From the NCBI RefSeq assembly GCF_001895925.1, contig NZ_MPPI01000046.1, positions 1 through 35,817 of the forward strand: a stretch of DNA of 35,817 nt. The letters run 5' to 3'. Shown here piece after piece: positions 3,518-33,196 of this stretch; the first letter of the stretch is position 1; every line of letters begins with the position of its first letter. A model generated the notes under the pieces. That model was not told the origin of the DNA, made no database searches, and worked only from the letters and a program-made list of their open reading frames with translations. This DNA is from Phormidesmis priestleyi ULC007 (lineage in GTDB: Bacteria > Cyanobacteriota > Cyanobacteriia > Leptolyngbyales > Leptolyngbyaceae). A program made the position numbers and the translations under genes.

Positions 3518-3547
3518 TTAACATTTCCGTTAATCTTAGGTTATACA
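3518..3547 (+). promoter_or_regulatory. Putative psbA promoter
   Basis: TTAACA at 3518-3523 and TATACA at 3542-3547 are separated by 18 bp, fitting a sigma-70-type promoter. The start of transcription would fall near 3555, giving a short leader with a small GTTCC/GGAAC hairpin (3552-3556/3561-3565) before the ATG at 3587. Inferred from pattern only. Confidence 0.5.
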
Positions 3548-3586
3548 TCCCGTTCCGAAGGGAACACAACCTCGCAATTATTCACT

Positions 3587-4669
3587 ATGACCACCACGAT
3601 TCAAAGACGCGAAAGCGCCAACCTCTGGGAGCAGTTTTGCTCCTGGGTCACCAGCACCGACAACCGCCTGTACGTCGGCTGGTTCGGAGTCCTGATGATT
3701 CCCACCCTCCTGTCTGCCACCATCTGCTTCATCACCGCCTTCATCGCCGCCCCTCCTGTAGACATCGACGGCATCCGCGAGCCAGTCGCAGGCTCCTTGA
3801 TGTACGGCAACAACATCATCTCTGGTGCAGTCGTCCCTTCTTCTAACGCTATCGGCTTACACTTCTACCCCATTTGGGAAGCTGCTTCTTTAGACGAGTG
3901 GCTCTACAACGGTGGACCTTACCAACTGGTTGTATTGCACTTCCTGATTGGCATCTTCTGCTACATGGGACGTGAATGGGAACTCTCCTACCGTCTAGGC
4001 ATGCGTCCTTGGATCTGCGTCGCCTACTCCGCACCTGTTGCAGCCGCAACCGCAGTCTTCTTGATCTACCCGATCGGACAAGGTTCCTTCTCTGACGGCA
4101 TGCCTCTTGGCATCTCCGGCACCTTCAACTTCATGTTGGTCTTCCAGGCAGAGCACAACATCTTGATGCACCCCTTCCACATGTTGGGAGTGGCTGGAGT
4201 CTTCGGCGGTAGCTTATTCTCCGCCATGCACGGTTCACTCGTGACCTCCTCGCTGGTGAGAGAGACCACCGAGAACGAATCACAGAACGCAGGCTACAAA
4301 TTTGGACAAGAAGAAGAGACCTACAACATTGTGGCAGCGCACGGCTACTTCGGTCGGTTGATCTTCCAATACGCCTCCTTCAACAACAGCCGCTCCTTGC
4401 ACTTCCTCTTAGGTGCATGGCCCGTGGTCGGCATCTGGTTCACCGCCTTGGGCATCAGCACGATGGCATTCAACCTGAACGGGTTCAACTTCAACCAGTC
4501 CATCATCGACTCCCAGGGTCGAGTGGTGAGCACCTGGGCTGACGTGATCAACCGTGCCAACTTGGGCATGGAAGTGATGCACGAACGGAATGCTCACAAC
4601 TTCCCTCTCGACTTGGCTGCTGGAGATGCTGCCCCTGTCGCACTCTCTGCTCCTGCTATCAACGGTTAA
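3587..4669 (+). CDS. psbA: Photosystem II reaction centre protein D1, Glu130 form
   Basis: D1 core subunit of photosystem II in the thylakoid membrane. It carries the redox tyrosine and most ligands of the Mn4CaO5 cluster. The start at 3587 (MTTTIQRRE) gives the standard 360-aa precursor; the longer frame from 3347 is only an open upstream extension. Tyr161, Asp170, Glu189, His190, His198, His215, Ser264, His272, His332, Glu333, His337, Asp342 and the Ala344 cleavage site are all present, followed by a 16-residue C-terminal tail removed by CtpA. Residue 130 is Glu, the state associated with high-light or stress D1 isoforms, rather than Gln. Its own promoter and terminator make it a single-gene unit. 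A functional psbA next to plasmid replication functions is unusual. Confidence 0.98.
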
Positions 4670-5309: not shown

Positions 5310-7416
5310 TTAGGCGATCGCCCTCTCTAAAACCTCGATCGGGATGACCTGTCTCAAGGACTCCTTCGTTTCGGCGCAGTCTGCTAGTTCCCAAAGTTCA
5401 CGAATCTCTTTTAGAGCCTCTGCCGTTAACCATTGAGCCAGTTCTAGAAGCTGATCTCCTGGATCGCCCACTTCTTTACTGCTTTCATAATAAATAGGTG
5501 ATCCAGATTCGGGAACCCGCTGCTGATAGGCTTCGCGCTTGGCTTCGCGGCGGTTCAGGAGATCGATTGTAGCTTGCCAGTGACCAGCATCGAGCCGATG
5601 AACTTTCAGTTTCTCCCCTTCGTGCCCTAGCACTGAGCGTGACCATCGGAACGCAACCTTGACTCCCATCTGAGAGAGCATCTGATGAACGAGTTGGACG
5701 TTGGATGTTTCTGGGTTGACCGTGAAGTTGAGCAGTAGCTTTACCTGCTGGCTGTAAGCACGAATCTGATCAGCGCAGTCCTTCAGGTCATATTTAGTCC
5801 ACTCACGAGTCGGAGTAAGAAACTCTTCTAGCCCTAGCTTTTCGCGCAGAAGCCGTCGCAATTCGACCCCTGAGATATCCCACGGGCAGAGTCCCTGATT
5901 CCAGCCAGCTTGTTTTTCTAAAGCTCTAGCAGTGCGATCAACCGCTAAACCGGGACACATCTGATTTTCTAGGTTCAGCAGCTCCCCGCGCCGCCTGCCG
6001 TCTTTGTCTGCCAATACATCGGAGAGCGTTAGCGACTCTGGATTCAGACAGTAGAACTCGCACAGGTAGTAACGCGCGATCGCCATCCGGTCTTCCGGGT
6101 CGATGCCTTCTTTACTCTCCAGATCTGCCACTTCCAGATAGCTCAAGACTCTGGCAGTTACAAGCGATTCTGCATCCATGTGTTTTAGTTCGTCTCTGGC
6201 TTGCTTAAGTAGAATTCTGGCAGCCGGATCAGCGGTTCGATCTTCTACCATGACCTGATTGCCCTCAAACTTTAGTCTAATCAGTAGGGTGTCTCGCAAG
6301 TGCCACATGGAGCGATTTCGCTCGGCTTCAAGGCGGCAAAACAAGTTAACGTGCGGGTCAGACCGCCAATCGTAACCTTCGATGCTGCCCACAAGATCTT
6401 CTCGTAAGTTGGAGCGAATCAAGCTCACCGTTGCGCTCGTTCTCTGTTGCAGAAGACTCTTCAACTCCAGAGCGTTGGTCGATCGAGCAATCTTGCAAAA
6501 GTTAGACCCTCGCTTTGCACACCACACAATCCGTTCCACGGGTTCTCGCACTCTCCCCAACGCTTGTGCCATGTCTGCGTCGGTCGAGGACGCTCCAGTG
6601 AAAATGCCATAGACTCTGGCAATGATGCCCTGAGCTTCGATGCTGACCCCGGTTGCCATTGAAGGTGTGCAGATCATTACGTCATGTTCATGGCGTTCTA
6701 AAACCGCGTCAGGATTTTGAATACACGAACGTTCAACGTCATCCCCGCTCGTTTCTGAGTTGATACACAGCACTCGTTTCTCTGGGGATTCTTGAGCGAT
6801 TAGGCGCGCGATAGCCTTGGCGGTGCGAAGGCTATCGGTTGCCACCAACAGCACTTTCCCAGAGTCGAGGGCTTTGATCTCGCGAATCAGTTGCCCGACG
6901 ATCGCCGTTCGATCAGGAGATTGAATGAACTGAACCGGGTAGCCTTTGGGTTGGTAGTCATTGCGAAGCAAAAACACAGGCAGATCATCCCCGCGCAGGT
7001 CTGCGAGATACTGCAAGGTTGCATTATCGAGGTCAGCGTCTGCGACCACCACTAGGCGAGCCACAGTCACCAATTCTCTAAGCTTTGCCAATAGTGCGGG
7101 TCGCTTCCCGTCTTTTCCGCACGTTGAAGACGTGAGGAGATGTCGCACTACCTGAACCACTTCGTCTAAAACCAGGACACAGCCTCTAAAAGATTCCGGG
7201 TTGATTGCCAGGAACGAATCGACGCATAGTCCAATTCTCAGCGTGTAGGCACTGCCATTGATAAACTGCCCGTTTACTTTGTCGAGGTCGCCTTTGTAGT
7301 CTAGCCCCAAGCGTTCTGAAAGGTTTCGCATCAGGGCGATGCGGTGTCCTGCGGCTAAGACTTTTTCGGCATTGACCACCAGGGAGGCAGCAAACTTTGT
7401 TTTCCCAGTTCCTTTG
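5310..7416 (-). pseudogene. CyRepA1-type plasmid replication protein, N-terminally truncated by an IS
   Basis: Helicase-like replication initiator of cyanobacterial plasmids, related along its length to the intact copy at 29898-33065. Reading inward from the IS edge at 7416, the frame gives KGTGKTK (Walker A) at once, then RIGLCVDSF, LVLDEVVQVV (Walker B region), VVADADLDNATL and MATGVSI, in the same order as the intact protein. The roughly 395 residues that precede the P-loop there, including the DUF3854/Toprim-like part, are absent. The first in-frame GTG (7379) is downstream of the Walker lysine, so any product would lack ATP binding unless started in the IS. The annotated frame of 689 aa ends at 5310. 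A different frame stays open from about 5316 to 5078 and could be a shifted C-terminal extension. Confidence 0.85.
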
Positions 7417-15532: not shown

Positions 15533-15754
15533 ATATTCTTCTAAAAATGAATTCTGCTTGGATGATCTGACTTTTATTTTTTGCTAGATAGCAAACTTAA
15601 CAGATAAGCGATCACACCCATTCTCAGAGCAAGAGAAAATAAACCTCTATTATGTAGCTATGGTGTAGATAGCGATCGATCTAAAGGTGAAGCGACTCAC
15701 TTCTGGGTACGATTGTGGAAATCCTGGTTCAATTCAAAACAGTGCTCCGTTCAT

Positions 15755-16453
15755 ATGGAATCTACCAATGCTTCGCGAGTAACGCTCTTGCAGGCAGTTC
15801 GAGCTATCAAACAGGCTGTTGCGCCTAGACGCACCCGAATCCTAATCGATGAGCTTTTACCACTGCTCAGTGAGCAAGAGTGTGACATGCTAAAAGAGGC
15901 GATCGAGCTTGAACGCTTGGAGCGGACTTACTCTAGTGAGCGGCAAGAGCCTACTGCCTTAAGCGAAGTCAGGATTGAAATCAAAAACGTTCCGTACAAA
16001 TCGGTCAAGAAAGGAACCAAACACAATCCCTATGTCTACGTCCGATGGCGCGATCGCAGCCATGAGGACTTGTATTTGGGAGCCATGCTTGCCCCCACCC
16101 AAGGAATTTCGTACAGCTATACAACTCAAGCTGACGGTAGCATCGAGTTTACAGATAAAAATTTGCTCAAGTTGGTTCACAAAACGAAGCAGACCGTGCG
16201 TTACATCCGGTTAATTTCAATAGAGCCTCAACTATTTGATGACGTGGGCAGCGAGGTCAAGGGACAAGCGTTGCTCAAGGTTGAAGAACTGCACCCGGAA
16301 TTTCTCACCCCGATGGGTGGTCTCCGAACGTACTACTTTCCAGTGTGTATGAAAACTCAGTTTTCTAAGAAAGAGTGGCAAGTTGAAGCAGTTGGGACTC
16401 AAACCGCTCAGCAAGAGGCTGCCCCCCCTCGTCGATTTAATCTGAGCCGTTGA
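15755..16453 (+). CDS. Hypothetical protein, 232 aa, first gene of the polymerase-like unit
   Basis: I do not recognise the family. ATG 15755 (MESTNASRVTLLQAVRAIK) is preferred over the GTG at 15713. The N-terminal 70 residues are helical (TRILIDELLPLLSEQECDML). The rest is beta-rich with YKSVKKGTKHNPYVYVRWRD near residues 82-101 and a dense set of aromatic and basic residues, which would fit nucleic-acid binding; that is inference. A basic PPRRFNLSR tail ends the protein. It is separated by 111 bp from the next gene. Confidence 0.6.
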   Translation: MESTNASRVTLLQAVRAIKQAVAPRRTRILIDELLPLLSEQECDMLKEAIELERLERTYSSERQEPTALSEVRIEIKNVPYKSVKKGTKHNPYVYVRWRDRSHEDLYLGAMLAPTQGISYSYTTQADGSIEFTDKNLLKLVHKTKQTVRYIRLISIEPQLFDDVGSEVKGQALLKVEELHPEFLTPMGGLRTYYFPVCMKTQFSKKEWQVEAVGTQTAQQEAAPPRRFNLSR

Positions 16454-16564: not shown

Positions 16565-16825
16565 ATGAATCAATTAATACCTCTCGACATCGATCGAGAG
16601 CTGGCTTTGCATCGGCTGGATAACGTTAGCGAGACTATTGAAGAGCTACTTGCTGGGGGAGTCACTACCGATGACCTTGAGGATTCAGGTGTTCTCGGTG
16701 ACTGGAAATCTAGTGAAGAGAAACTTCAGGAGCAGCGAAACCGAAAAGTGGCAGGAAAGGAACTGCTACAGTCGCTCGCTGAACCCCTTTTTGGCTCTAA
16801 TGAGTCGTGTGCTGAGGAGTTCTGA
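16565..16825 (+). CDS. Small acidic hypothetical protein, 86 aa
   Basis: The ATG at 16565 has GAGGA six bases upstream and is preferred over the ATG at 16559. The protein is helical and acidic (ETIEELLAGGVTTDDLEDSG). Its stop overlaps the next start (TGATG at 16823-16827), so it is translationally coupled to the polymerase-like gene and may be its partner. No family recognised. Confidence 0.6.
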   Translation: MNQLIPLDIDRELALHRLDNVSETIEELLAGGVTTDDLEDSGVLGDWKSSEEKLQEQRNRKVAGKELLQSLAEPLFGSNESCAEEF

Positions 16826-18570
16826 TGCTCAAAATCACAGAATTCGATGTCAAAACTGGAATTACTCTCCGAGAATTTGATCTTGAGACTCAAGAGCTTC
16901 AACCTAAGCAAAAACAGATTGAACACTCTTTCCTTGAACATTGGTTCAAGGCGAACAAGATTGAGAATGCTCAGTTTTTCTTGGGGAAGTTTTACGATCG
17001 CGTCACGGATGCAGACCGCCAACGATTAGAAGCAGACGGCAAAGTCTTAGTGTTCAGCAATGGTCGGACTGGCTATTTCACCGATCCGGAGATAGCACAA
17101 CTGTTGACACAGGGAGATGCAGAACAGGGAATTCAACCCATTTATGCGGCTGACCGCAACACAGCCCATAACGCTGTGGCTTACGGTAGTCTTATCGTCT
17201 CAGATGGGATGAGTTCCACCCTGGTTGATTTCGCCACCACAGGTCACAATGCCCGAATTCTGGTGATTGATGATGAAGCGCGATCGTGTGGACGTGTCGG
17301 TCTACACGATCGGCATAGACGCTCTATTTCCATTGAAGATCTCAATAAGCTGTATGACAAAATGGGCGATGGAACCATGCTGGTTGCAACATCCGTCATG
17401 AAAGCTCTGCTGACTGAAGCAGAAATTGAACAGGCGATCGTGAACGCCTCAGAAAAAGCAGGTGTAGAAGCAGATGTTGGTGAACTCATCAGCACTTATC
17501 AGCGAGAAGGCACACTTAAATCATTCCCGATTCCGGCTGAAGTTAGTGAGGCGATCGACAAGCGCCTGAACTACCTAACTCACACCACGGTGACCCAATT
17601 TCGCGCCGCTACCCCCGATTTACCAGGAATGGTAAAGGGGACGATGGCAACCAGTCGGTGGTGTGAGCGGTTGGGCGTAGATGCCATTCTCTCCAAAAAT
17701 GACATCAAAGGAGATGAAGGCACTCTGTCTGAACCGGGAATCAAGGAAGTTAGCCAGTTTTGGATTAGCCGTAAATCTGATGGCAAATACGGCGACCAGG
17801 TTGTCGGTCCACAGGTCAAAGGCTGTATTCCCGAAGCGACACTCACTGAATTCAATCCGCGTCTACTGGGGCAGAGTGAGGCGCTGGCAGAAGTCGCGGT
17901 TGATCCGAAGCGGTTAGGGCAGTACTACCTCGACCAGAAAGATAAACAGCGTAAGGCTTTGGCAGAAGAAGGTCACGACCAGGACGATCGCTCCGATTGG
18001 CTTTACGACGTTCTAAAAGCCGACTCATTCGGGCAGTTGGATCAATTCAGCAAAGTTAACTATGAACTTGACCGCTATTTGCGCGGTGAACGAGTCGATT
18101 TGGCGGTCGGTGGAATCTACGTCCCATCCGCAATGGCACAGCATCACGAGCAACTGATGCCTTGGGAAGTGTGTAATAAGGATTTGCCACATGGCGCGAT
18201 CGTGGCGTATTACCGCTCTCCATTTCCCAACGTGGGCGCAGCCGCGATCGCGATCGCCATCAACAATACTGAAACTCTTAAACAAAACGACCTTGAAGCG
18301 TTTCGCAAGGAAGGCGTTGCCTATCTCAACCCTTGGACAGCGAAGCACATCGCGATTACCGATTTTGACAAGGATGCCAATGGCTATTTTGTTGGCTATC
18401 TGCCAGCCGTTGAAGATTTACCCGATCGTATTCGAGCAGAATTGGCGACCGTCGGTGAGCAGCCCTTAGCCAAGCAGTACGAGGCAGGACGATCGCTGTT
18501 TGGGCGGTTGATTGCTCAGATGCAGATGGCTGGGCATTTTTATTGCTCTTGTTTGGCTTTAGTTAAATAA
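16825..18570 (+). CDS. Putative two-barrel RNA polymerase-like protein, C-terminally shortened
   Basis: 581 aa. The C-terminal third carries, in order, GERVD (421-425), YRSPFPN (463-469), LNP (501-503) and TDFDKDANG (512-520). In the RNA polymerase beta-prime double-psi barrel the corresponding motifs are GKRVD, NRAPT, a conserved strand ending in HP, and NADFDGD, whose three Asp bind the catalytic Mg; here all three Asp are kept (D513, D515, D517). The same signature defines single-chain relatives such as phage YonO and QDE-1-type RNA-dependent RNA polymerases. VKGTMATSRW and ILSKNDIKGDEG (about 271-305) could belong to the first barrel, but this is weaker. Relatives normally continue well past the Asp triad. 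Here the frame ends 64 residues later with an atypical tail (FYCSCLALVK), so the 3' end is probably lost. Assignment is by motif only. Confidence 0.55.
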   Translation: MLKITEFDVKTGITLREFDLETQELQPKQKQIEHSFLEHWFKANKIENAQFFLGKFYDRVTDADRQRLEADGKVLVFSNGRTGYFTDPEIAQLLTQGDAEQGIQPIYAADRNTAHNAVAYGSLIVSDGMSSTLVDFATTGHNARILVIDDEARSCGRVGLHDRHRRSISIEDLNKLYDKMGDGTMLVATSVMKALLTEAEIEQAIVNASEKAGVEADVGELISTYQREGTLKSFPIPAEVSEAIDKRLNYLTHTTVTQFRAATPDLPGMVKGTMATSRWCERLGVDAILSKNDIKGDEGTLSEPGIKEVSQFWISRKSDGKYGDQVVGPQVKGCIPEATLTEFNPRLLGQSEALAEVAVDPKRLGQYYLDQKDKQRKALAEEGHDQDDRSDWLYDVLKADSFGQLDQFSKVNYELDRYLRGERVDLAVGGIYVPSAMAQHHEQLMPWEVCNKDLPHGAIVAYYRSPFPNVGAAAIAIAINNTETLKQNDLEAFRKEGVAYLNPWTAKHIAITDFDKDANGYFVGYLPAVEDLPDRIRAELATVGEQPLAKQYEAGRSLFGRLIAQMQMAGHFYCSCLALVK

Positions 18571-18670: not shown

Positions 18671-19141
18671 GTGGAACCTGTAACGATAGCAGCAGCGATC
18701 GCAACTTTGTTTTTCTCTGAGTCACTGAAAGCAGGTGGAAAATCTTTTGGTGAGGGTGCTTCAAAAATTATTGCCCAGATAGTTTCAACTGTTCGCAATA
18801 AATTCAGAGCCTTTGGTACAGAAGGGCTACTCACACGAGCAGAAAAGCAGCCTACAGAAATAAATGTTGATTCTGTCAAAGCTGAACTGGTGACACAGAT
18901 GGCAGAAGATCAAGATTTTGCTGTTGAAATAGCAGATTTACTAGCACGACTAGAATCGACAGGGATGACGATACAACTTATGGGAAGTGAGATCAACATT
19001 ACAGGCGATCTTGAAGTAGATAGAATGACTCAAAAAACAAGCGGAGATAGCTTTGCTGAACAGCGAATGCTAACTAACGTAAAGGCTCAGAATATCAAGC
19101 TAGGTGAGTTAACTCAGGAAAATAAGAGCTATGAGTCCTAA
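18671..19141 (+). CDS. Hypothetical protein of a cyanobacterial family, 156 aa
   Basis: GTG start at 18671 gives MEPVTIAAAIATLFFSE, a hydrophobic helix and the N-terminus expected for this kind of protein. Then follow EGLLTRAEKQPTE and two helical repeats (residues about 60-95), and a beta-like tail ITGDLEVDRMTQK with NVKAQNIKLGELTQEN. The same short pattern (NVEAQNIWVGRIFQ) opens the next protein, so the two may interact through matching segments. It overlaps the TPR gene by 11 bp. I recall similar proteins beside TPR or caspase-like genes in cyanobacteria, but cannot verify that here. Confidence 0.6.
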   Translation: MEPVTIAAAIATLFFSESLKAGGKSFGEGASKIIAQIVSTVRNKFRAFGTEGLLTRAEKQPTEINVDSVKAELVTQMAEDQDFAVEIADLLARLESTGMTIQLMGSEINITGDLEVDRMTQKTSGDSFAEQRMLTNVKAQNIKLGELTQENKSYES

Positions 19142-20702
19142 TAAAAGCCCTTCAGAAGAGGAACGTCCTAACTCCGAGTTTCGACAAACGGCTATTAGCA
19201 ACGTTGAAGCACAAAACATCTGGGTTGGTCGAATATTTCAGACCATAATCTACTTTGGAATTTCTGTAAATAGCAGTCAGCGTCGCTTTGCCCAGTTTCT
19301 TTCAATTCTTGTCTATATAGCTTGTCTAGTGTGGGGGGGTATTAAACTGATTAATGGCGAGCCGGAACTTTCCACCTATGCAATGTTGGTTTTAGGAAGT
19401 GGACTACTATCATTAACTTGCATTTACTATGCTTGGTTTTGGAAACCAGAACTACGAGATCAATCTCCATCTGATCCTAACATTAATTCCTCTAACAAGT
19501 TAGTTAAGCAACAACAAACTAGGGAGCAGCAACGAAAATGGACGCGCCGTTCAACGATGATGGGTGCGATTGCCATTCCCCTTCTAACATATGGTGGGTT
19601 CTTTATCTGGCAGAGCCTTCCTCCCAAACACAGTATTATTCTCCTAGCTGAATTCGAGCCAGACAAGGGAATACCGCCATATCCTCGCGTTACTAACACC
19701 ATCGAAGAGCAATTGGGAGCAGCTATCAGACCTTACTCCGATATTAAGCTCAAAAGATTGTTCCACTCCTTTGCGAACCATGGGGAAGCTCTAGCAGTGG
19801 GTCAGCAGTACAAAGCCTCCATAGTTATTTGGGGAAGGTATGGTGAGCAAGACAAAGGTATACTACCGGTCAGCTTCAACTTTGAAGTATTGAAAGAGCC
19901 AAAATACTTACCTAAATCGGTAAAAGCAGCAGAAAATTCAGGTGCAACTCTACTTCTGGACATTCCTCCTACTAAAAACCTCACTGTATATACAAATCTT
20001 TCTAGCAAGACAAGATATCTGACTTTCCTCACGCTAGGAGTAACGCGTTATTCAGCAGAGGATTGGGATGGGTCAATTAATTTTTCCACTGATGCGTTGA
20101 AGGATCTAGAGAACCCAGAACTGCAACAATCTAAACTTAAAGTAAATGATCTAGATCGAAGTCTTGTTTATGCTTTTCGAGGAAAAGTACATCAATTCAA
20201 GGAAAATGGTGAACAAGCACTTGCAGACTACAATCGAGCAATTGAAATTTCTCCAAATTACTCTATCTTTTACGGTTATCGAGGAAGTGTCTACAATATG
20301 CAAGGGAACCACGACCTTGCGATTTCTAATATGACCAAAGCACTTAACATCGAGCCTAAACTGCGTTTATGGGGCGATGATATTTTGGGAGCAGCTTATG
20401 TCATGCGAGGTAGTAATTATCTTTTCAAAGGTGATTTTACTCGTGCTCTTGGAGATATTAATCAAGCAATTCAACTTAACGCTACTTCTAGTCCAAATGG
20501 CTTAAAGATAATGGTCTTTGCTTATCGCCAAAGAGCGGTAGCATATGAACTTCTGAAAAATTATGCTCATGCAGATGAAGACTACACCAAGTCAATTGAG
20601 ATTGCCCCAAAATATATGGCTTACACTTCTTACGTAGGGCGTGGACGATTTTATAGTACACAGCAGAATTTTACCCGTGCCATCGAAGACTTTAATAAAG
20701 CA

Positions 20703-21837
20703 TAGGACTTACGCATTGACAAAAGTAGCAAGGTCTGAAGTCAAGCCACCGTCGATTGGGAGAGGTTTTCCAAGATGAACTGACGGATCACGGGCACGAA
20801 CAACTGCCTCGATACCTGATACAGGTTATCAATCAAGCCTTCAACGCGCATCGTTTGCAGCTTACAAAAGGCTTGCAACGCACAGAAAAAATGGGTTCTG
20901 ATAGCGGACTCTGTTCGCACGTGGAAGCGTTCAATGTTGCACACTTGCTTGATCACCCGATGAAAGCTCTCAATTTGCCAATGACTATCGTGAATCTGGC
21001 GAAAGTTTTGGCGGTTCAGTTGCGCTAGTTCCAGATCGTTGGGCAGGTGCATGATGTAATACCGATCCTCGTTTTTGAAGCTCTGGCAAAACACTTTCAC
21101 CCACCCAAACTCCTTAAGATAGACCACTAATCCAGATTCAGGAATCGGTAACGTTTTCACCTGTACTTGAATGCCCCGTTCTAGTGAAACCTGGCGATTG
21201 TCAGCAATCCCAAACAGAAAACCCACTTTCTCGTTTCTGAGAAACTTCAGATTTTCAATCCCTGAATCCCAACTATCGCCTGTCACCCAAGCCAGTTTCA
21301 GTCCCCAAGCTTTCACTTCTGCCACCATGTCGCGAAAATACTCGTTCTTGGTTTTGCCCTCCTGTTTGTCGTAAATGCGAAAGTTCACCGGATAGGAAGT
21401 GCCCGTGACAGCGGTATAGTACAAGGTAATCAGATTGATACCCTTCACTGTCCGCTTGTGTTTGCCCGACCAAAAGTAGCCCATCAGGGCAGTGCTTTGG
21501 GGGTCGCGGTAAGGTTTATCCAACACGCTATCGTCTACACTCGCAACCCCACCGTCTAGAATCAGATGGTCTAGGACTTCATTAAACAGATCGCGGGGTT
21601 TGTAGTTCTCCCGTAGCAGAAACCGATTCACACTGTCGTGACTCAACCCCTCCATCACCTCAGATAGACGAACACAACTCACATACTTGGGTTCCGCCAA
21701 CAAAAACAAGATGTAGAGCGAGCAAGTACACTTGGCGGTTGAGGGTTTAGACAGTTCTCTCACGACTCATTTCTGCGGACTACAAAACTATTCTAGATTC
21801 ACCACATTCTTCTTCTCCTGTCAATGCGTAAGTCCTA
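20703..21837 (-). mobile_element. IS701/IS4-like insertion sequence (1135 bp) with 5-bp target duplication
   Basis: Perfect 18-bp inverted repeats starting TAGGACTTACGCATTGAC at 20703 and, on the other strand, at 21837. The flanks are AAGCA at 20698-20702 and AAGCA at 21838-21842. Removing the element restores the TPR frame precisely, so the insertion is recent. One transposase is encoded on the minus strand. Confidence 0.95.
20741..21763 (-). CDS. DDE transposase, IS701/IS4-like, 340 aa
   Basis: Motifs: GLSHDSVNRFLLRENY (residues about 39-54), VASVDDSVLDKPY with the first Asp, WSGKHKRTVKGINLITLYY, WVTGDSWDSGIENL with the second Asp, and HWQIESFHRVIKQ with the catalytic Glu and a Lys seven residues later. 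The motif order and the KGINLI...LYY stretch are typical of the IS701-type group within the IS4 superfamily. Length looks complete and the element has intact ends, so it may be active. Confidence 0.9.
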   Translation of the reverse strand: MRELSKPSTAKCTCSLYILFLLAEPKYVSCVRLSEVMEGLSHDSVNRFLLRENYKPRDLFNEVLDHLILDGGVASVDDSVLDKPYRDPQSTALMGYFWSGKHKRTVKGINLITLYYTAVTGTSYPVNFRIYDKQEGKTKNEYFRDMVAEVKAWGLKLAWVTGDSWDSGIENLKFLRNEKVGFLFGIADNRQVSLERGIQVQVKTLPIPESGLVVYLKEFGWVKVFCQSFKNEDRYYIMHLPNDLELAQLNRQNFRQIHDSHWQIESFHRVIKQVCNIERFHVRTESAIRTHFFCALQAFCKLQTMRVEGLIDNLYQVSRQLFVPVIRQFILENLSQSTVA

Positions 21838-22797
21838 AAGCAATCAAACTAAATCCTGTTGCCACTAAAGCTTATTCTTGGCGTGCAACAGCTTATATAA
21901 TGAGTTTCGGTGCTGGAGGAAGCAAAGATAATCTTAACCTTGCTCTTAATGATTATACTGAAGTCATTCGGCTGGATAAGAACAGTTTCCAAGCTTATGT
22001 GGATCGTTCCATGCTTTATAGTGTTCAAGGCGAGAGCGATCTCGCACTTAATGACCTTAACAAGGTAATCCAAATCTGGGAGGATAATCAGAAATTCTCG
22101 TCGCAATCGACTACGCCCAAAAAAATCACATTTGCCAACATTTTAAACTCTGAAAATAATAAGACAATTATTGATGCTTATCATTTGCGCGGAAGAATCT
22201 ATGCTATACACAACAATTATGATAGTGCCGTTGCAGATCTTACTAAAGCCATTGAACTTTATCAAAACAAAGAACGTGTAGATCTACTATCTCAATTCCC
22301 TCTTGCAAATAATGGAATTGCTCCTTCATTCGCTAGCCCTTATTATACTCGTGGAGTTATTTACAGTGCTCGAAAGGAATTTGATCGAGCAATTTCAGAC
22401 TTTACCGAAGCCCTCAAGCTTCGACAAACTCTCAAACTTCCACCGGACGAAAATATGTATCTCATTTATTTCAGTCGTGGGTCTGCTTATGGCTCCAAAG
22501 GTAGCAATGATCAAGCGATCTCTGATCTCACCCAAGCCATCAACTTAGCCCCAACTATTAACCCAAAGCTGGATTTAACTTCAGCCTACTTTGTGCGAGG
22601 AGCCGCTTACTTCAACAAGGGTGATAGAAGCAATGCGATTACTGACTTGAAGCAAGCCAAATTATCGAATGACCCAGGAATGCGTAAAGGTGCTGAAGAT
22701 CTACTTCAAAAATTGGAAAGGAATTAATCCGTGTACTGATACGAAGATCGATAAATGCAGAGGTACAGCATCGTATTTTGGTGATCTCGGTGAGGTC

Positions 22798-23862: not shown

Positions 23863-24782
23863 TTGAAATCATCGAATTTACGTTCCTCTGGCGGCACTAC
23901 CCAAAGAGTGCAGTACCCAAACGTAGAAGGCTTGCCCTGGACTTTGAGCGTTACGCCTAAGCGATCGACATCTTTGGTGCAATCCAAGCCAGTCAACAGT
24001 CCATCATTCCACTGGATTAAATTCCGAGCTAATCTCCCTTGATCGGTCTTTGACCAGCGCAGCGTTTCAGCTTCTTCCAAGGTCAGTTGTCGCGGTGCGC
24101 CGGGAGCAAGTTCGGGCTGAGTTAGTTGAGTGCTTGCCCAACCGAGTCCTGCACCGATCGTGACCATAGCTATACCAAAAGCAGAGATCGGAAGTGCAGC
24201 CAGACTCAGTAACTCATCTTTCCACGTCGTGAAGTCGATCGTCTTGGAAAGTCGAGCCGTGGTCTTTAAAGACTTCAGTAGACTGGGATTTCCCGTCTCT
24301 TTTAGCAGAGCTTCGACGCTTTGAGTGAGTCTCTGCTGAAGGGATTGGATATTCTGAAGAGTCTGGTTCAAACTCTCCTGAAAGGTCGAAAATTGCTCGA
24401 TCGAGAGACTCTGGTTCTCCGACTCTAGGAGTGTCGGAGTCAGTGAGGGTTCCCAACTCTGTAAGGTATCGTTCAGTTCGGTCGTTACTTGCTCGAAGTT
24501 GATGAGTTGCTGCTGCAACTGACTCAACAACCGACTGCCTTTCTCGTAAGATTGCGCTGATCGCTGCACTTCCTGCGAGTTCAAAACGATCACCTTGAAT
24601 AGCTCCTGAGTTGATTCCAGAAGCACTCGGTTCGTGTTTATCCATGTGTCTAACTTGTCGCTAATCTTGCGCGACTCTTCGACGGTTGAAATCTTTGCTT
24701 CGTCAGCAGTCTGCCACAACTTCCCAACCGCTTTCTGAAGTTCCGCAATTTCTGTCAGGAGCTTGTCATTACTTGCTACCAC
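23853..24782 (-). CDS. Coiled-coil membrane protein of the ParA operon, 309 aa
   Basis: Residues 1 to about 175 are almost entirely coiled coil (Gln/Glu/Leu-rich: LLSQLQQQLINFEQVTTEL). A single membrane segment follows (LPISAFGIAMVTIGAGLGWA, about 194-213), then a soluble C-terminal part of about 90 residues with two cysteines (LDCTKD, YCTLWV). It overlaps the ParA-like gene by 14 bp, so the two are co-translated. The layout recalls mobilization-accessory or partition-anchoring proteins, but I cannot name the family. It may hold the ParA-like ATPase at the membrane. Confidence 0.65.
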   Translation of the reverse strand: MVASNDKLLTEIAELQKAVGKLWQTADEAKISTVEESRKISDKLDTWINTNRVLLESTQELFKVIVLNSQEVQRSAQSYEKGSRLLSQLQQQLINFEQVTTELNDTLQSWEPSLTPTLLESENQSLSIEQFSTFQESLNQTLQNIQSLQQRLTQSVEALLKETGNPSLLKSLKTTARLSKTIDFTTWKDELLSLAALPISAFGIAMVTIGAGLGWASTQLTQPELAPGAPRQLTLEEAETLRWSKTDQGRLARNLIQWNDGLLTGLDCTKDVDRLGVTLKVQGKPSTFGYCTLWVVPPEERKFDDFKKN

Positions 24783-25599
24783 TGGTTACCACCTCTGCCG
24801 ATGGCTCTTCTACTTTCGGGTCTGCTGCTTTCTTCTTGCTGGTTGATTTTATGGTTTTTGGGGGAGTTGATTCAAGTTCAGAGGGAGGTAGCCCTAAGTA
24901 CTGACTCGCTTTCTGCAATTCTGGCAGGCTCAGATTCAGGAAACTGTTCGCTAGAATGCGATCGCCAAAAGGAAGCTGCTCTTTCTCAAAAAAAGACAAC
25001 GCTTCTTCATGCATAACATCAAACGTGCTGAGTTCGAGCAATGGCAAGTCGATCTCAATGCCGCCTAATTCAAGAAATCGCTTGTGTTCTTCAGATTTTT
25101 CCCAACGGCTGAAGTTCAAACCTTCCTGCGCCCACATCAAGCTTCTCACTGCAACGTAATCCGCCTGATCGCCGCAAAACTCCATCATGATGCGGAGGCT
25201 ATTAATCGTGTTGTAACAGTTGTTGAGAACCGTATCGAAGGTGATGCGGTAGCCGAGATCCTTAGCTAGGTCAAACGCGCCAAATTTCTGCAACTGCTCT
25301 CTGGTTGCTTTTCCAGAGGCTCCAGGCATGTCAATCAGCACTACCGTGGGCTTGTGTTGGTCGATGTCGCTAAAGAGTGTTTTCGCCTCAACAGACTTGA
25401 GAAAGTTGAGGCGCTTCACTTTGTGCTGACATTCGGTGTGATAGTCCTCAAACTCCGGGTTCTCAACATCAGCATCGTAGGCAAGACAGTTAATGCCTGC
25501 TTGTATCAGGTAGTAATACAACTGCCGACAGTGCAGCGTTTTCCCAGTTCCGCCCTTGCCTCCCAAAATAAAGATAATGCGATTGAGAGTGGAAGTCAT
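24769..25599 (-). CDS. ParA/MinD-like ATPase
   Basis: Deviant Walker A P-loop ATPase: ILGGKGGTGKT near residues 10-20 has the signature Lys, LAYDADVENPEF near 39-50 follows switch I, and TVVLIDMPGAS near 84-94 is the Walker B/switch II region. The C-terminal 40 residues are Ser/Thr/Lys-rich and disordered. ATG 25599 is chosen over the TTG at 25605. It sits between a putative DNA-binding gene and a coiled-coil membrane protein in one operon, which fits a segregation or conjugation-positioning module. The ATPase family is secure, its exact job is inferred. Confidence 0.85.
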   Translation of the reverse strand: MTSTLNRIIFILGGKGGTGKTLHCRQLYYYLIQAGINCLAYDADVENPEFEDYHTECQHKVKRLNFLKSVEAKTLFSDIDQHKPTVVLIDMPGASGKATREQLQKFGAFDLAKDLGYRITFDTVLNNCYNTINSLRIMMEFCGDQADYVAVRSLMWAQEGLNFSRWEKSEEHKRFLELGGIEIDLPLLELSTFDVMHEEALSFFEKEQLPFGDRILANSFLNLSLPELQKASQYLGLPPSELESTPPKTIKSTSKKKAADPKVEEPSAEVVTSGSK

Positions 25600-25605
25600 A
25601 AACAA

Positions 25606-26247: not shown

Positions 26248-26669
26248 GACCCCAAGGAGGTCATTTAGATCAACACGTTAGGAAACTTCTAGAGCTTTCC
26301 TTGACCGCAATTGTACTATCATCTTTCAGGCATTGGGAAGAGCTTTAACTAGCTTTACAAATTTTTTGCGTGGATGGCAGCCGTTCGGAGAGTTTGGAAG
26401 TTGTTCCGAAGGTATTTCCTGGGGGTGCTATAAATGATTCATCCGAGGAATGATGCGATAAGTCCCACCTAACATCTATTTCTGCCCTCCTCTAAGCGCC
26501 TACCGGAGTATTCATTCCTGAAACAGATTTAGCATTCAGCGAGGCATTTCTACAAGAGTTCCTGAAGGCACTCCCACGGGCTGGTTTCCGGGATGTGCCT
26601 TAACGAGAATTCTCTCTTGTGTGCCTGATTTTGCCCTTAGCGAGCCATGCCCTTTGTCCGTACAAAACC
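26248..26669. other. Divergent intergenic region, candidate oriT
   Basis: Lies between the ParA operon and mobC, the usual place for the transfer origin of MOBP plasmids. AAGGCAC (26565-26571) and GTGCCTT (26595-26601) form an inverted repeat extended by CCC/GGG pairs, and GAGAATTCTC lies just beyond (26605-26614). No nick site can be assigned with confidence. The AGGAGG at about 26254 on the plus strand has no start codon in reach. No gene is seen here. Confidence 0.35.
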
Positions 26670-27065
26670 ATGTCTCTAGAAGTCAAAACTGAGCGATTTG
26701 AACTACGCCTCACACCGGAGGAGAAAAAGCGACTGGCAGCTAAAGCAGCCCAGTTTGAGCTTTCGGTGAGTGCATATGTTCGGTGTGTCATTGGGTTTTC
26801 TGAACTGCCTCATGAAATCACTGAGATTGCTGAAGAAACCTACTTCAGGTTGGGTGAGGTGCATAGCAATCTCAATCGTGTTGGCTCTAACCTCAATCAA
26901 ATCGCTGCTGCTATTGGTTCACAGTTGGCCCATCAATCGTCAGATCAACCAATCATTCAGACCCTAAATACGCTCCATCTGGCAGTAGACGAACTGAAGG
27001 AAACGATTAGTCAGTTGCGATCGCAAATCGACGAAACACCTCAACCAAAACAACGTAAGCGATGA
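26670..27065 (+). CDS. mobC: MobC-like relaxosome protein, 131 aa
   Basis: Small DNA-binding accessory factor that helps the relaxase open oriT. The N-terminal RFELRLTPEEKKRLAAKAAQ with VSAYVR is the ribbon-helix-helix-like motif of MobC proteins. The rest is helical (LNRVGSNLNQIAAAIGS near residues 74-90, the usual MobC C-terminal signature). ATG 26670 gives the standard MSLEVKTERF start, and the longer frame from 26619 is ignored. The stop overlaps the relaxase start (ATGA at 27062-27065), so the two are coupled. Confidence 0.85.
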   Translation: MSLEVKTERFELRLTPEEKKRLAAKAAQFELSVSAYVRCVIGFSELPHEITEIAEETYFRLGEVHSNLNRVGSNLNQIAAAIGSQLAHQSSDQPIIQTLNTLHLAVDELKETISQLRSQIDETPQPKQRKR

Positions 27066-28468
27066 TCGGTAAACAGGTTAAAGGAAGAGACTTTTTAGGA
27101 TGTCTTGCCTACGTTTTAGAAAAGCCAGGGGCAAAACTCATCGGCGGCAATATGGAGGGCACAACACCTCAAGCGTTGGCGATCGAGTTTGAACAGGTTC
27201 GCCAACGCAGCTTGCGGGTTCAGCGCCCGGTCTATCACTGCGCTTTGAGCTTAAGTCCGGGTGAACATTTGCCCGATGAAGCTTGGCGAGAGATAGCAGA
27301 TCGATACTTGAAAGCAATGGGCTTTCAGCGAAACCAGTACGTGCTGGCGCGGCACACTGATACAGAGCACCACGAGCATGTTCACATCGTTGCAAACCGG
27401 GTTCAGCGTAGCGGTCAAGTTGTAACAGATTCATGGGATTTCCGGCGCAGTGAAGCTGTTTTGCGTCGGCTAGAAAGCGAGCATGCATTGGTTACAGTAA
27501 CTCCAAGCTGGGAGAGCGATTGTGCCCAACCCACTCGTCGAGAGATTGAAAAAGGTAAAACAACTGGGAAATTTTCTGTTCGGCAACAACTTCAGCATCT
27601 GATTGATCTCACGTTGAGTCAGGATCGCTCGATCGAGACGATTACCGATTTGAGCGATCGGCTGAAGCAGATGGGAGTTTCTACTCGCCTGAACTGCTTG
27701 GTGGACGGTCAACCCAGGGGTATTTCGTTTGAATTTAATGGCATTGCGATCGCGGGTGCAAAACTGGGAAGAGCCTATAGCCTGCCTCGACTCCAGCAGC
27801 GATTAGCCGGAGGCGTGCCATCTGTGATTGAGCAAGCGCCGCCCTCAGCAACGCAGCAGATCCGCCGACTACTCAATCAGACGATTCAGCACGTTTCTTC
27901 TATTCCGCAACTCGTTGAGCACTTGCAGACATCTGGAGTACCTGTGCAGCTTCATCAATCTCATAGAGGGCAACAGTTGTTGATCGAAGTCGAGGGCAAA
28001 ACTATCAATAGTTCAAGGCTGGGCAAGCTCTACTGCCTACAAACTTTAAAGAGTCGATTGGAGCATCAGGCGAGGTCTTTACCTGTTTCGATGCGGCAAA
28101 CGACTGAAACATTATCAACGCCGAAAGCTTTAGCTAAATCTGGGCACTTGAACGCGGCTCGCGAGAAACAGGTTTATCAGCATCTCTATGAAACACTGGC
28201 ACAAAGAGTACGTAAGCGTAGCAAGTACCAGCAATCTACTCGTGAGGTGGATCTAGAAATCGCCCAATTTCTCCTCCATAGCGGCTCTGACACTAATGTA
28301 AAAGCTCTGGTTCACAGTCCTCAAGTTCAGCAGATTAGCCAAAACTCTGGACGTGAGCAGGCAGAAGCCTATGTGCAAGAACTCTTAAAGCTGGCGACTC
28401 AAAACACAAATGGAAGGAATAGTCAGCGTGCGAATCCGCTCAACCATGACCTGGATCGATCGCGATAG
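27062..28468 (+). CDS. MOBP-type relaxase (mobilization protein), 468 aa
   Basis: Nicks oriT and pilots the strand in conjugal mobilization. The N-terminal relaxase domain has the three-His metal site in RHTDTEHHEHVHIVANRV (residues about 97-114) and the family start MIGKQVKGRDFLGCLAYVL, where Tyr17 is the candidate nicking residue. The C-terminal half contains two copies of one module: residues about 170-258 and 264-345 share QIRRLLNQ/VRQQLQHL, a helix with G-V-hydrophobic, and a strand ending in K/RLGRAYSLPRLQQRL or RLGKLYCLQTLKSRL. No primase or helicase domain is present, as in mobilizable plasmids that rely on another system for the mating pore. Confidence 0.9.
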   Translation: MIGKQVKGRDFLGCLAYVLEKPGAKLIGGNMEGTTPQALAIEFEQVRQRSLRVQRPVYHCALSLSPGEHLPDEAWREIADRYLKAMGFQRNQYVLARHTDTEHHEHVHIVANRVQRSGQVVTDSWDFRRSEAVLRRLESEHALVTVTPSWESDCAQPTRREIEKGKTTGKFSVRQQLQHLIDLTLSQDRSIETITDLSDRLKQMGVSTRLNCLVDGQPRGISFEFNGIAIAGAKLGRAYSLPRLQQRLAGGVPSVIEQAPPSATQQIRRLLNQTIQHVSSIPQLVEHLQTSGVPVQLHQSHRGQQLLIEVEGKTINSSRLGKLYCLQTLKSRLEHQARSLPVSMRQTTETLSTPKALAKSGHLNAAREKQVYQHLYETLAQRVRKRSKYQQSTREVDLEIAQFLLHSGSDTNVKALVHSPQVQQISQNSGREQAEAYVQELLKLATQNTNGRNSQRANPLNHDLDRSR

Positions 28469-29897: not shown

Positions 29898-32800
29898 CTA
29901 CGCAGCTTCCGCCACCGTAGCCGAGTTAGATAAGCTTAGATCTATACCGTCAGTGACTACCGATAGTAAATCCCGTTCTAGCCAAGCCTCAAAAACAGCG
30001 CCTCTGCCATCATCTAGTCCAATCACTCGATAAATTCGCTCCTGCTTATTTCGCGGTCCATCCTTGCGAATTAACTCAAGCCGTAGCCCTAACTTGCTCG
30101 TTAAAATTTGCCTCAGCACGGTGATCGGAGAGGATTTGGCGTTGACTGTGATGCCTAAAACCGCTTTAGTTTTCCAGGGGACATCTTTGAGCGCTTGGGC
30201 AAACGCAACAAGCTTAGGGTTAGAATTACGAAGTTCTATCCCAGATAAAAACTCTACTAGCCCTAATTTTTCTAAGACGACAACTTGATGACACAGCAAG
30301 GATGAATTCAAATCTGGTGTCCAAATCGCTCCTTCTCCCGCTTCGAGGGCTTTTTTAACGATCTGAGTATCCCGCTGAATCAGGTGATCCCGCCCGATCG
30401 ACAGGTAATAGTGCAACCGAACTTGCGGATGCCATCCTCGATCGTCTTTCCCGACTAAATCTGGCGTTACGTCAATTCGATATCGTTGCTGAAGCTTGTA
30501 TTTCCGGGCTTTGCGGCGCTCTGAGGGCACCTTTGACCGTTGGGCTTCGAGCTTGCTTGCCTCTAAATCGGTGATTTCTTCCGCTGCTGCGATCGCAGCA
30601 CATTCTGCCTGCTGGTTCGATTCAGAGATGTTAGTGAGTTGGATTTTGAGTTTCTTCCGCGTCTTGGCGCTGATGCACTGAGTGGTGGGAATGATGGTGT
30701 GCCCTTCGGCTTTGAGTCCCGCTAAAACGGTCGTTCGATAGTGCAGCATTCCGGCGTTGATTCGGGCACCCATCTTGGCCCAAGTTCGTTGAGCGATCGG
30801 ATCAACGGTGATGTCAATGTCTTCCTGGTCGAATGCCAGCAACGTTTTCAGCGTTGTCCGAACGACTTTAGTTTGACTTTTCAAAAGCGACTGGTGATGC
30901 GTGGCACCACTCCCAATTTTGCCAATGCCGTAAGAAGCAATCCAGACATACCGATCCACAGGATCACGCAGTCGTGATAAGGATTGCCGCACTGCGTCCG
31001 CCGAGGACACGCCCTGAAAACAGCCCCAGACGCTGGTGAAGTGCCCTTTGATATCTATACTGACCCCCGTTTCGATCGAGGGGGAAGCGATCACCACGTC
31101 ATACTGCGTCAGAATTTCATTGAGCTTAGAAATGCATCCGTACGCCTCATGAGATGGATCGCTGATGGATTCTGAGTCGATCCGCAGGATGCGTTTTTCG
31201 GGGAAACGACAATGGATTTCTTGCTCTAGCCAGGTTTCGAGATTTTGCGTTCCCCACTTAGACGTGCGTTTTTGCCCACTCACTTGAATAAAGGGACGGT
31301 TGCCAAGCGCAATATGTTTTTTCAGTCCCATTAGCCAAGTCGTAGGCTCAGACTGGTTGTAGTGAAAGACATTCCAGCCTTTTTCTGGCATCCAATCGTT
31401 CCGAATAATCCAGGGTTCAAGCTGATCGCTCACTTCGGCTAATCCCAGAATGAAATCGATCGATAAGTCAGATAGGTCTGCGTCTGCCAGCACGATTCGC
31501 CCATGCCCATAGGGTGTCAGTGCATTCTGTATGAGTTGCTTTAACTGCTTAAGGACGACGACTCGATGCTGACGAACCTCGGTGTCCGCCGACAAGGTAT
31601 GCCAAATCACCTGTTCAGCCTCATCCACAATGATCAGCGGATTCTTCCAGTGATTCGCGTTAAATCGCGCACCAGACTTGGGGTGCAGGGAATCAACGCA
31701 CAGTCCGTATCCCAGCAGATGCCCGGTTTCTGAATCTCGTAACTCTGTCATGTAATCTAACCCAAAGCGGGCGCACAGAGCCTGCCCTAGTTGAATTCGG
31801 TGGGTTAAGACTAAAGTGGGTTGCCCCTGCTGAATGGCTTCTGCGACCCACTTTGTAATGATCTTCGTTTTTCCGGTGCCTTTGGGTGCTTTGAGCGCAA
31901 CGACACGAGCTGACTGCGGTGCTTTCAACTCTAGCTCGCCCAAGTCTTGGACGTTGACCACACAAGCCGATTTATAGGTCAGTTGGCTGTAATTCAGGAT
32001 TTCCCACTCTTCCAAAATGGGAGCCGCTGTGTAGATTTCGTCAAAGGCTTGCCGCCCAAGCTCTGTGACGGGAAGAAAACTTGTCCAGAATGCGATCGTG
32101 GTGGCTAGTAAGCTCCAAACCGCTTGAAATTGTTGAATGAGAAGCGGAAAATTGAAAGAATTGCGCGACGCTGACGTGACTAGTGACGCTTCTGAAGGCA
32201 TCTGGATCAGGGCTGTAGCTGTTTTGTGGAGAGCCTCAAGCGTTTGTCGCCCACGCGCGACGACGAAATCATCGACCCCTTTCTCTGGTTCTGGTAAAGC
32301 GATGACCCGCACGGTGCAGCCAGCTTGCTCTAGCATTCTACCGAGTCGAGTTGTGGCAAGCTGGACGTGACGACGGGTTTTGATTTTTTGGTCGTAGTCA
32401 AAGCAGATATAGACGGGGCGACCAGGAGCACAAAGAACCTGAAGATCCTTAATGAGTCTACGATCGAAGGTTTCTAGCTCCTGCTTATTTTTTCGATATC
32501 CGTTGAAAACTCCAGGTAGTGCCACAACTAGGTATCCCAGCGTCATGAGACAGCCAGCTTTTTTAGCGCCCTCCACGATGATGATAAATACAGAGGAGTC
32601 GAGCAGCGCGTCGAGCCACTGCCGGGGTCGGCGAGGATCATGCAGCGCGATCACCCGCGTATCGGTCTTGGGAGGAGCTTCGTACTTGATGGGCTTCCCA
32701 TCTTCGTCAAGGTAGGGGGTATCTGGCTTGAACTGTCCCCATAGCGATCGATTGGCATCCGCGTCATGTGCTTGAAACTGGCTGCGTCGAACCAGATCGT

Positions 32801-33065
32801 TCAGCCCAATCAAATCTTCGCCAGCACACCACCAACCGCCCATTTCAACATGACGGTAGCGGCGCAGCACCCAATCCACCACGCGACCGTCGTTGCGTCG
32901 CGCCAGTTGATCTGAATAAAGCAAATAGCTGTAAGGGGAATCATCCTCCAACGACACAACGTTTGCTTCGATAATTTCTCGGCAAACACCACTCTCCATC
33001 CACTCCTGGTAATGCTTTGGAGCGACTGGAGACAAAACTTTTAACTCTTCAAGAAACTGCGACAT
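29898..33065 (-). CDS. Plasmid replication protein, CyRepA1 type, 1055 aa
   Basis: Replication initiator with a Toprim-like DUF3854 region and a helicase-like ATPase. ATG 33065 (MSQFLEELKVLSPVAP) is the family-like start. Residues 160-230 hold FIIIVEGAKKAG and YICFDYDQKIK, the acidic motifs of the DUF3854/Toprim part. Walker A KAPKGTGKTK is at about 392-401, LVLTHRIQLGQAL at 418-430, Walker B IIVDEAEQV at 478-486, IVLADADLSDLS further on, then IASPSIETGVSID and SRLRDPVDRYVW of a superfamily-2-like motor. It is the only intact rep gene in the window and is probably the active initiator. Repeats at 33197-33256 lie upstream. The truncated paralogue is at 5310-7416. Confidence 0.9.
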   Translation of the reverse strand: MSQFLEELKVLSPVAPKHYQEWMESGVCREIIEANVVSLEDDSPYSYLLYSDQLARRNDGRVVDWVLRRYRHVEMGGWWCAGEDLIGLNDLVRRSQFQAHDADANRSLWGQFKPDTPYLDEDGKPIKYEAPPKTDTRVIALHDPRRPRQWLDALLDSSVFIIIVEGAKKAGCLMTLGYLVVALPGVFNGYRKNKQELETFDRRLIKDLQVLCAPGRPVYICFDYDQKIKTRRHVQLATTRLGRMLEQAGCTVRVIALPEPEKGVDDFVVARGRQTLEALHKTATALIQMPSEASLVTSASRNSFNFPLLIQQFQAVWSLLATTIAFWTSFLPVTELGRQAFDEIYTAAPILEEWEILNYSQLTYKSACVVNVQDLGELELKAPQSARVVALKAPKGTGKTKIITKWVAEAIQQGQPTLVLTHRIQLGQALCARFGLDYMTELRDSETGHLLGYGLCVDSLHPKSGARFNANHWKNPLIIVDEAEQVIWHTLSADTEVRQHRVVVLKQLKQLIQNALTPYGHGRIVLADADLSDLSIDFILGLAEVSDQLEPWIIRNDWMPEKGWNVFHYNQSEPTTWLMGLKKHIALGNRPFIQVSGQKRTSKWGTQNLETWLEQEIHCRFPEKRILRIDSESISDPSHEAYGCISKLNEILTQYDVVIASPSIETGVSIDIKGHFTSVWGCFQGVSSADAVRQSLSRLRDPVDRYVWIASYGIGKIGSGATHHQSLLKSQTKVVRTTLKTLLAFDQEDIDITVDPIAQRTWAKMGARINAGMLHYRTTVLAGLKAEGHTIIPTTQCISAKTRKKLKIQLTNISESNQQAECAAIAAAEEITDLEASKLEAQRSKVPSERRKARKYKLQQRYRIDVTPDLVGKDDRGWHPQVRLHYYLSIGRDHLIQRDTQIVKKALEAGEGAIWTPDLNSSLLCHQVVVLEKLGLVEFLSGIELRNSNPKLVAFAQALKDVPWKTKAVLGITVNAKSSPITVLRQILTSKLGLRLELIRKDGPRNKQERIYRVIGLDDGRGAVFEAWLERDLLSVVTDGIDLSLSNSATVAEAA

Positions 33066-33196
33066 CGGGATCTCACGTATAAACGTGCAACCGGAATGCA
33101 GCGCAGGACGGCTACCATGCCACAAAGTTACCAATACGATTGGTTAGGGATTGAATTTTGACTCAATCCCGCTTAGAATGTGCATAGAAAAGCGCA

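Follow-up and report, generated by a model that had tools for sequence, protein, structure and literature searches.

A probable single-chain two-barrel RNA polymerase gene, truncated in Phormidesmis priestleyi, and its full-length relatives on cyanobacterial plasmids

In the two-barrel superfamily of RNA polymerases, as it is described in PMC7824862, one barrel contributes a DxDxD triad and the other a pair of basic residues. YonO of the Bacillus phage SPbeta is presented as a member that transcribes, a single-chain DNA-dependent RNA polymerase (PMC5467207), and according to the same paper the main genomes of cyanobacteria encode YonO-like proteins too; a further paper puts YonO-like proteins of cyanobacteria in likely mobile elements (PMC7598289), and single-subunit RNA polymerases of plasmids appear in the dendrogram of a third (PMC10770324). 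For QDE-1, the residues Q736, K743 and K767 are named, the two lysines lying 24 positions apart (PMC1750930). The open reading frame that we describe here lies in a stretch of 35,817 nucleotides of Phormidesmis priestleyi ULC007 (contig NZ_MPPI01000046.1), which we call the window. It very probably encodes the first ~566 residues of a two-barrel single-chain RNA polymerase that would make RNA for a plasmid, and the copy in the window is probably inactive (Table 1). A sequence-only reading of this DNA had pointed to GERVD (residues 421-425), YRSPFPN (463-469), LNP (501-503) and TDFDKDANG (512-520) as marks of a divergent two-barrel polymerase used by a mobile element. The reading frame and its coordinates proved real, and the four stretches lie where they had been placed.

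Table 1. Positions of the polymerase gene, its motifs and neighbouring genes in the window, and of polymerase genes in loci of relatives
Feature	Position	Strand	Remark
Truncated gene, single-chain two-barrel RNA polymerase-like protein, 581 aa	16825..18570	+	homologous part ~residues 1-566
First (beta-like) barrel motif Q258, R260, K271-G-T, K295	17596..17721	+	23/23 relatives
R464-S-P466-x-x-N469, equivalent of R-x-P near catalytic loop	18214..18231	+	23/23 relatives
DxDxD loop D513-F-D515-K-D517	18361..18375	+	three Asp in 23/23 relatives
Non-homologous tail past break point	18525..18570	+	DNA comparison with relatives
Small acidic partner gene, 88 aa	16559..16825	+	TGA overlaps polymerase ATG by one base
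Upstream gene common to window and two nearest relatives	15713..16453	+	3/25 loci; no Pfam match at E 0.01
ParA/CobQ-like NTPase, partition type	24769..25605	-	PF01656, E 2.5e-6; homologs in 8/24 other loci
NikA-like mobilization protein	26619..27065	+	PF21983, E 3.7e-13
MobA/VirD2-type relaxase	27062..28468	+	PF03432, E 5.1e-35
DUF3854 protein with ATPase region	29898..33134	-	PF12965, E 1.3e-40
Long and compact polymerase genes, L035	1251-6140 and 7858-10224		
Long and compact polymerase genes, L068	9941-14416 and 16142-18505		
Long and compact polymerase genes, L074	9941-14395 and 20961-23324		
Giant Gloeothece proteins, 2,448 and 2,805 aa, annotated 'ribonuclease H'	L086:7995-15341; L087:7995-16412		polymerase motifs, DFDGD, RNase HI

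Relatives of the protein are encoded in 13 loci of named cyanobacterial genomes (12 proteins of 1,227-1,568 aa and one, L028, of ~911 aa), and longer relatives are also found on plasmids, as had been expected of a family with full-length members elsewhere. For the main alignment, we combined the window protein with 23 chosen full-length relatives in four subgroups: W (n=12), the close subgroup of the window; P (n=4), from Pseudanabaena and Leptolyngbya boryana plasmids; N (n=4), from Nostoc, Trichormus and Chroococcidiopsis plasmids; and T (n=3), from Tolypothrix, Fischerella and Gloeothece plasmids. The 23 relatives are not independent witnesses, since some rows are close to one another (79-91% within subgroup P, for example). 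A close alignment joins the window to 13 close relatives in 14 rows. PLSDB has 27 records that match the window protein, 64 that match the protein of L027 (26 non-mobilizable, 25 conjugative and 13 mobilizable) and 80 that match a shorter, compact paralog, the last set overlapping that of L027. Every genus among the matches listed (the best 60 of 64 for L027 and 40 of 80 for the compact paralog) is cyanobacterial, and most features among the matches listed are annotated 'hypothetical protein'. A class-wide search of the Cyanobacteriia gave matches at E 1e-5 in 69 of 388 genomes; when the window's own genome was searched for a compact paralog, the window gene was the sole match.

Phage records were also searched, by tblastn with the window protein, one T member and one compact member, without a match, and five pattern-based scans of viral contigs found no relatives. 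PHROG 34895, a phage family of unknown function with 1,093 positions, matches two members of subgroup T at 1e-17 and 1.5e-18, the loci concerned being L072 and L037. This match to subgroup T at ~1e-17 makes it probable that some phages or prophages, missed by tblastn, encode related polymerases.

An R-x-P element ahead of the catalytic loop is a feature of the two-barrel RNA polymerase superfamily. Its counterpart here, R464-S465-P466, is invariant in the 23 full-length relatives together with N469, D513, D515 and D517, and is missing from two compact relatives. Equally invariant in the 23 are Q258, R260, K271, G272, T273 and K295, which belong to the other barrel and had been missed by the sequence-only reading. 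The two basic residues expected of this barrel, which is assigned by motif and not by structure, are thus present as K271 and K295 in all 23 relatives, and their spacing of 24 in the window is the same as that of K743 and K767 in QDE-1. Judged by sequence, K271, K295, R464-S-P466 and D513/D515/D517 are the catalytic set of two-barrel RNA polymerases. The motifs are taken as meaningful because they are conserved across diverged relatives.

Among the 14 close rows, YRSPFPN is identical throughout, and D-x-D-x-D is kept in all of them as it is in the 23 full-length relatives, so that no row lacks one of the three aspartates, a lack that had been named as counting against a polymerase. By pattern, DxDxD was found in 39 of 44 distinct ORFs, the remaining five being fragments. 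The loop itself varies, reading DFDKD in three close rows, DFDRD in five and DFDGD in six, with the G of the motif replaced by K or R in eight of the 14; the polymerases of phi14:2 (DFDID) and BUCT082 (DFDYD) depart at the same G position. In the window, a doubled GCGATC at ~18235-18261 adds two residues beside R-S-P that are absent from the 13 other aligned rows. The claims made for the remaining two stretches fared less well. GERVD is present in just three of the 14 close rows (the window, L021 and L027) and hence is no family feature, which rules it out as the equivalent of the beta-prime motif GKRVD. The full LNP motif occurs in seven of the 14 rows, while its proline is kept in all. The proposal that a mobile element uses a divergent two-barrel polymerase is thus largely supported, by the invariant catalytic set and by the alignments of the first barrel, with GERVD struck from its evidence.

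Structure models of the window protein and of the core were weak (mean pLDDT 61.7 and 55.2, from alignments of 13 and 14 rows). With VIA-align, where by the tool's own note a Z below 8 may mean only a common arrangement, 49 of the 50 listed rows for the window model (of 507 with Z of at least 2) are RNA polymerase chains, aligned over residues 125-324, the best being the phage gp64 RNA polymerase 8f72 (Z 7.7, rmsd 4.3, 162 aligned). One row alone is no RNA polymerase; it is that of p97, a protein with a double-psi barrel as its N domain. For the core model, the first 16 rows are RNA polymerases at Z 6.4-7.3. Foldseek with the window model placed QDE-1 at ranks 1, 2 and 7 of 153 matches, with E values that are not significant (0.046, 0.33 and 0.93); no Foldseek match reached E 0.001, either here or when PDB was searched with the core model and BFVD with the window model. 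Of the two barrels expected in the fold, the first has a model that aligns best with RNA polymerases, and the region of the second, around DxDxD, is modelled at pLDDT below 50.

Profile comparisons by hhalign interlink the subgroups and two compact types at E values from 8e-16 to 6e-145, with W joining T at E 2.7e-68. For the comparison with YonO, we used a YonO-type profile built from proteins of five phages, and the Prob and E values are those of single comparisons. This profile matches subgroup T alone at Prob 84.7-84.8 and the compact types together with T at Prob 92.8 (E 4e-7), over the R-x-P/DxDxD stretch and the following segment, while four column-reversed YonO controls gave Prob 0.0-0.2. 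The compact types alone gave weak values (11.7 to 45.6), all groups pooled gave 11.8 and the RNase H group 5.4. A direct link of W, P or N to YonO was rejected, as each of them alone gave no signal by hhalign (Prob 0.2-0.4). Hence, by these profiles, the window is joined to YonO only by a chain, which runs through the shorter plasmid subgroup T. No group matched the crAss-like or the P23-45 polymerase (best Prob 11.2), and profiles A5 and A3, like the window protein itself, gave no relevant match in sequence searches of PDB.

The window carries a relaxase gene, a NikA-like gene, a ParA-like NTPase gene and a DUF3854 gene, and because of these we regard the polymerase gene as lying on plasmid-like DNA. 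This agrees with the earlier suggestion of a mobile element, and the relatives sit on plasmids wherever they could be placed. The DUF3854 protein presumably belongs to a type that serves cyanobacterial plasmids in replication. A 689-aa protein encoded at 5310-7379 resembles, by eye, the helicase part of this DUF3854 protein, as though the replication protein were present once more in a shorter form; Pfam finds no DUF3854 there. The first 4.7 kb of the window look chromosomal by eye, with dinB- and HU-like genes and psbA (D1) at 3347-4669. Further along, a TPR-repeat gene is apparently split by a transposase gene (19131-20705, 20741-21763 and 21732-22727; by eye), and a relative of that transposase in L037 is annotated as IS701 family.

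Directly upstream of the polymerase gene lies the small acidic partner gene, which BLAST clusters in nine of 25 loci, the window included, and a text pattern finds in eight of the 25. A profile from six relatives recovers the window copy at 6.8e-17, whereas the 11 loci that belong to P, N and T give it no match. Resembling ORFs are visible by eye in 14 loci, those outside W not being recovered by the profile. As a candidate identity, YonP was discarded, there being no likeness by eye.

The loss of the C-terminal end that the sequence-only reading had suspected is borne out by DNA comparison. Identity to the nearest relatives, L027 and L021, is 74-75% from 16482 or 16470 up to 18524, where the match ends. 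What is retained, ~566 residues, amounts to ~37% of the 1,519-residue relative L027. An NPTGxVAN-like stretch and AVDxxK, each found by pattern beyond the Asp loop in 21 of 23 full-length members, are both absent from the window, and a search of this assembly, without a positive control, did not turn up the lost C-terminal part. Over the retained part, dN/dS between window and L027 is 0.079, at a dS of 1.5 that is near saturation, which at the sequence level shows that this part was shaped by purifying selection over its history. Furthermore, of 172 columns that are otherwise invariant, the window deviates at four and each of the 13 other rows at 0-7. With purifying selection in its past and no surplus of unusual residues, the gene was probably truncated recently and probably gives an inactive product. 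The window copy, which keeps the catalytic residues and has lost everything beyond the region of the Asp loop, thus probably is a recent, inactive remnant. It is very improbable that the 581-aa protein has a function of its own, such as that of an inhibitor or of a half that another chain completes. The open reading frame, the low dN/dS, the small number of deviations and the intact partner gene would all fit such a protein, but a recent truncation accounts for the same signals, and a C-terminal part was not detected in the assembly by that uncontrolled search.

What the intact relatives do must be judged from the nature of their residues and from their surroundings. We infer that one barrel supplies the two lysines and the next one the R-x-P and the DxDxD loop, and that both sets together would bind metal ions and NTP in a metal-dependent catalysis that extends RNA along a template of nucleic acid, in all likelihood the DNA of the plasmid. 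The plasmid would use the enzyme for its own RNA, either transcripts or replication primers, two roles that we regard as about equal in likelihood. In the first of the two, an element-specific DNA-dependent RNA polymerase would express the plasmid's genes, a reading that may well be correct even if its chances stay somewhat below even. It would parallel the situation of SPbeta, where YonO is described as a DNA-dependent RNA polymerase (PMC5467207). On three plasmids of Pseudanabaena (L035, L068 and L074), a long polymerase gene and a compact one lie within 9-14 kb, measured end to end, with a gene for a Rho-N-domain protein between them, and the P23-45 phage likewise carries two different two-barrel polymerases (PMC10770324). 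In two of six compact loci (L088 and L089; not L035, L068, L074 and L090), an HU gene follows directly 3' of the compact polymerase gene, and an HU-like or DNA-binding gene adjoins that of YonO or lies within three genes of it in all five phages viewed. However, no promoter-like word was enriched upstream of the genes of two such plasmids, where the best counts in a search of low power (42 and 19 regions) were within those of 15 shuffles.

Priming is a comparably serious, still tentative candidate. Here, the intact enzyme would make an RNA primer for plasmid replication in a manner resembling ColE1, some of the enzymes being fused to RNase H. In the ColE1 scheme, an RNA polymerase and then RNase H act in turn. 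An RNase HI domain is present in the long relative L026 (PF00075, 9e-27) and in the two giant proteins of Gloeothece plasmids (2e-29 and 2.5e-37). By eye, the acidic residues D, E, D and D, which are catalytic in RNase HI, can be recognized in them. An ssb gene lies upstream of both Gloeothece genes, at 2.1 kb with four genes between and at 1.1 kb with two between, and a RepB_primase_C helical domain appears in two of the 13 rows of alignment A1, the one scored reaching 23.1 bits, below the cut-off of 26.1. Yet RNase H was found in just one of the 13 rows of A1, in none of the four of A4 and in none of L069, L070 and L072; the DUF3854 protein of the window means that the plasmid may own a replication protein already; and transcription is the activity described for YonO, the closest of the relatives that have been studied. 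Because L026 belongs to W and the Gloeothece proteins are distant from it, the fusion may have arisen more than once, a suggestion that comes from their placement and not from a tree of the RNase H parts. It is conceivable, if rather doubtful, that large cyanobacterial plasmids encode a priming machine of their own, in which the polymerase, fused to RNase HI in several lines, makes and trims the RNA of the origin primer; such making and trimming in one polypeptide would, with the same reserve, be a compact counterpart of the ColE1 scheme. RNA-templated copying, as by QDE-1 and the eukaryotic RdRPs, is very improbable. It is suggested by QDE-1 heading the Foldseek list and by a compact Pseudanabaena plasmid paralog that matches the Pfam RdRP family PF05183 near threshold (7.3e-5). 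This match, however, stays below the cut-off (22.1 bits against 23.8) and extends over 108 residues on either side of the catalytic loop, DFDGD included, the Foldseek E values are not significant, and YonO, in the same branch, is described as using DNA. Two other compact proteins did not match PF05183, and the long members scanned against Pfam gave no RNAP match, PF05183 included.

Cyanobacterial plasmids commonly carry such genes. If their products do make RNA, as in the reading that we prefer, many natural plasmids would own an RNA polymerase beside that of the host, which bears on their replication, their expression and their use as vectors. If this is true, the branch to which the eukaryotic RNA-silencing polymerase belongs would also gain plasmid members. 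The RNase H fusions, in turn, make the role of such orphan polymerases directly testable.

In the literature that we searched, no paper dealt with the long family of plasmid proteins, with the partner gene or with the fusions to RNase H. The long family, for which there is no Pfam model, looks new, though the published YonO-like proteins of cyanobacteria are known to us by description and may be the same sequences. Within the same literature, the small acidic gene coupled to the polymerase in subgroup W, the occurrence of two polymerases on single plasmids and the polymerase-RNase H fusions in two distant groups look new as well.

With YonO, the family shares a DxDxD with an R-x-P some 43-50 residues ahead of it and carriage by mobile elements, and a profile match is obtained through subgroup T and through the compact types with T. 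It differs in the length of its members (1,227-1,568 aa in subgroup W versus 831-924 aa for four YonO-type phage proteins), in extra C-terminal parts, with RNase H in one, in the plasmid location of those cyanobacterial relatives that could be placed, and in giving no direct profile signal from W. QDE-1 and the eukaryotic RdRPs of PF05183 resemble it in the lysine spacing of 24, in the first two (not significant) Foldseek ranks and in the near-threshold Pfam match of the compact paralog, whereas that match lies below the curated cut-off and around the catalytic loop only, the long members have none, and the setting of the cyanobacterial family is that of bacterial plasmids. In VIA-align, a phage gp64 RNA polymerase (8f72) heads the rows of the window model with Z 7.7, but P23-45 gp64 has 616 aa and gives no profile match (best Prob 11.2). 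The multisubunit enzymes have DxDxD, R-x-P and the two lysines in common with the family, as members of the superfamily, and beta-prime chains align with the model of the first barrel; in contrast, both barrels lie in one chain here, and there is no Pfam RNAP match. In that both of its barrels share one chain, the family would be nearer to YonO and QDE-1 than to the multisubunit enzymes.
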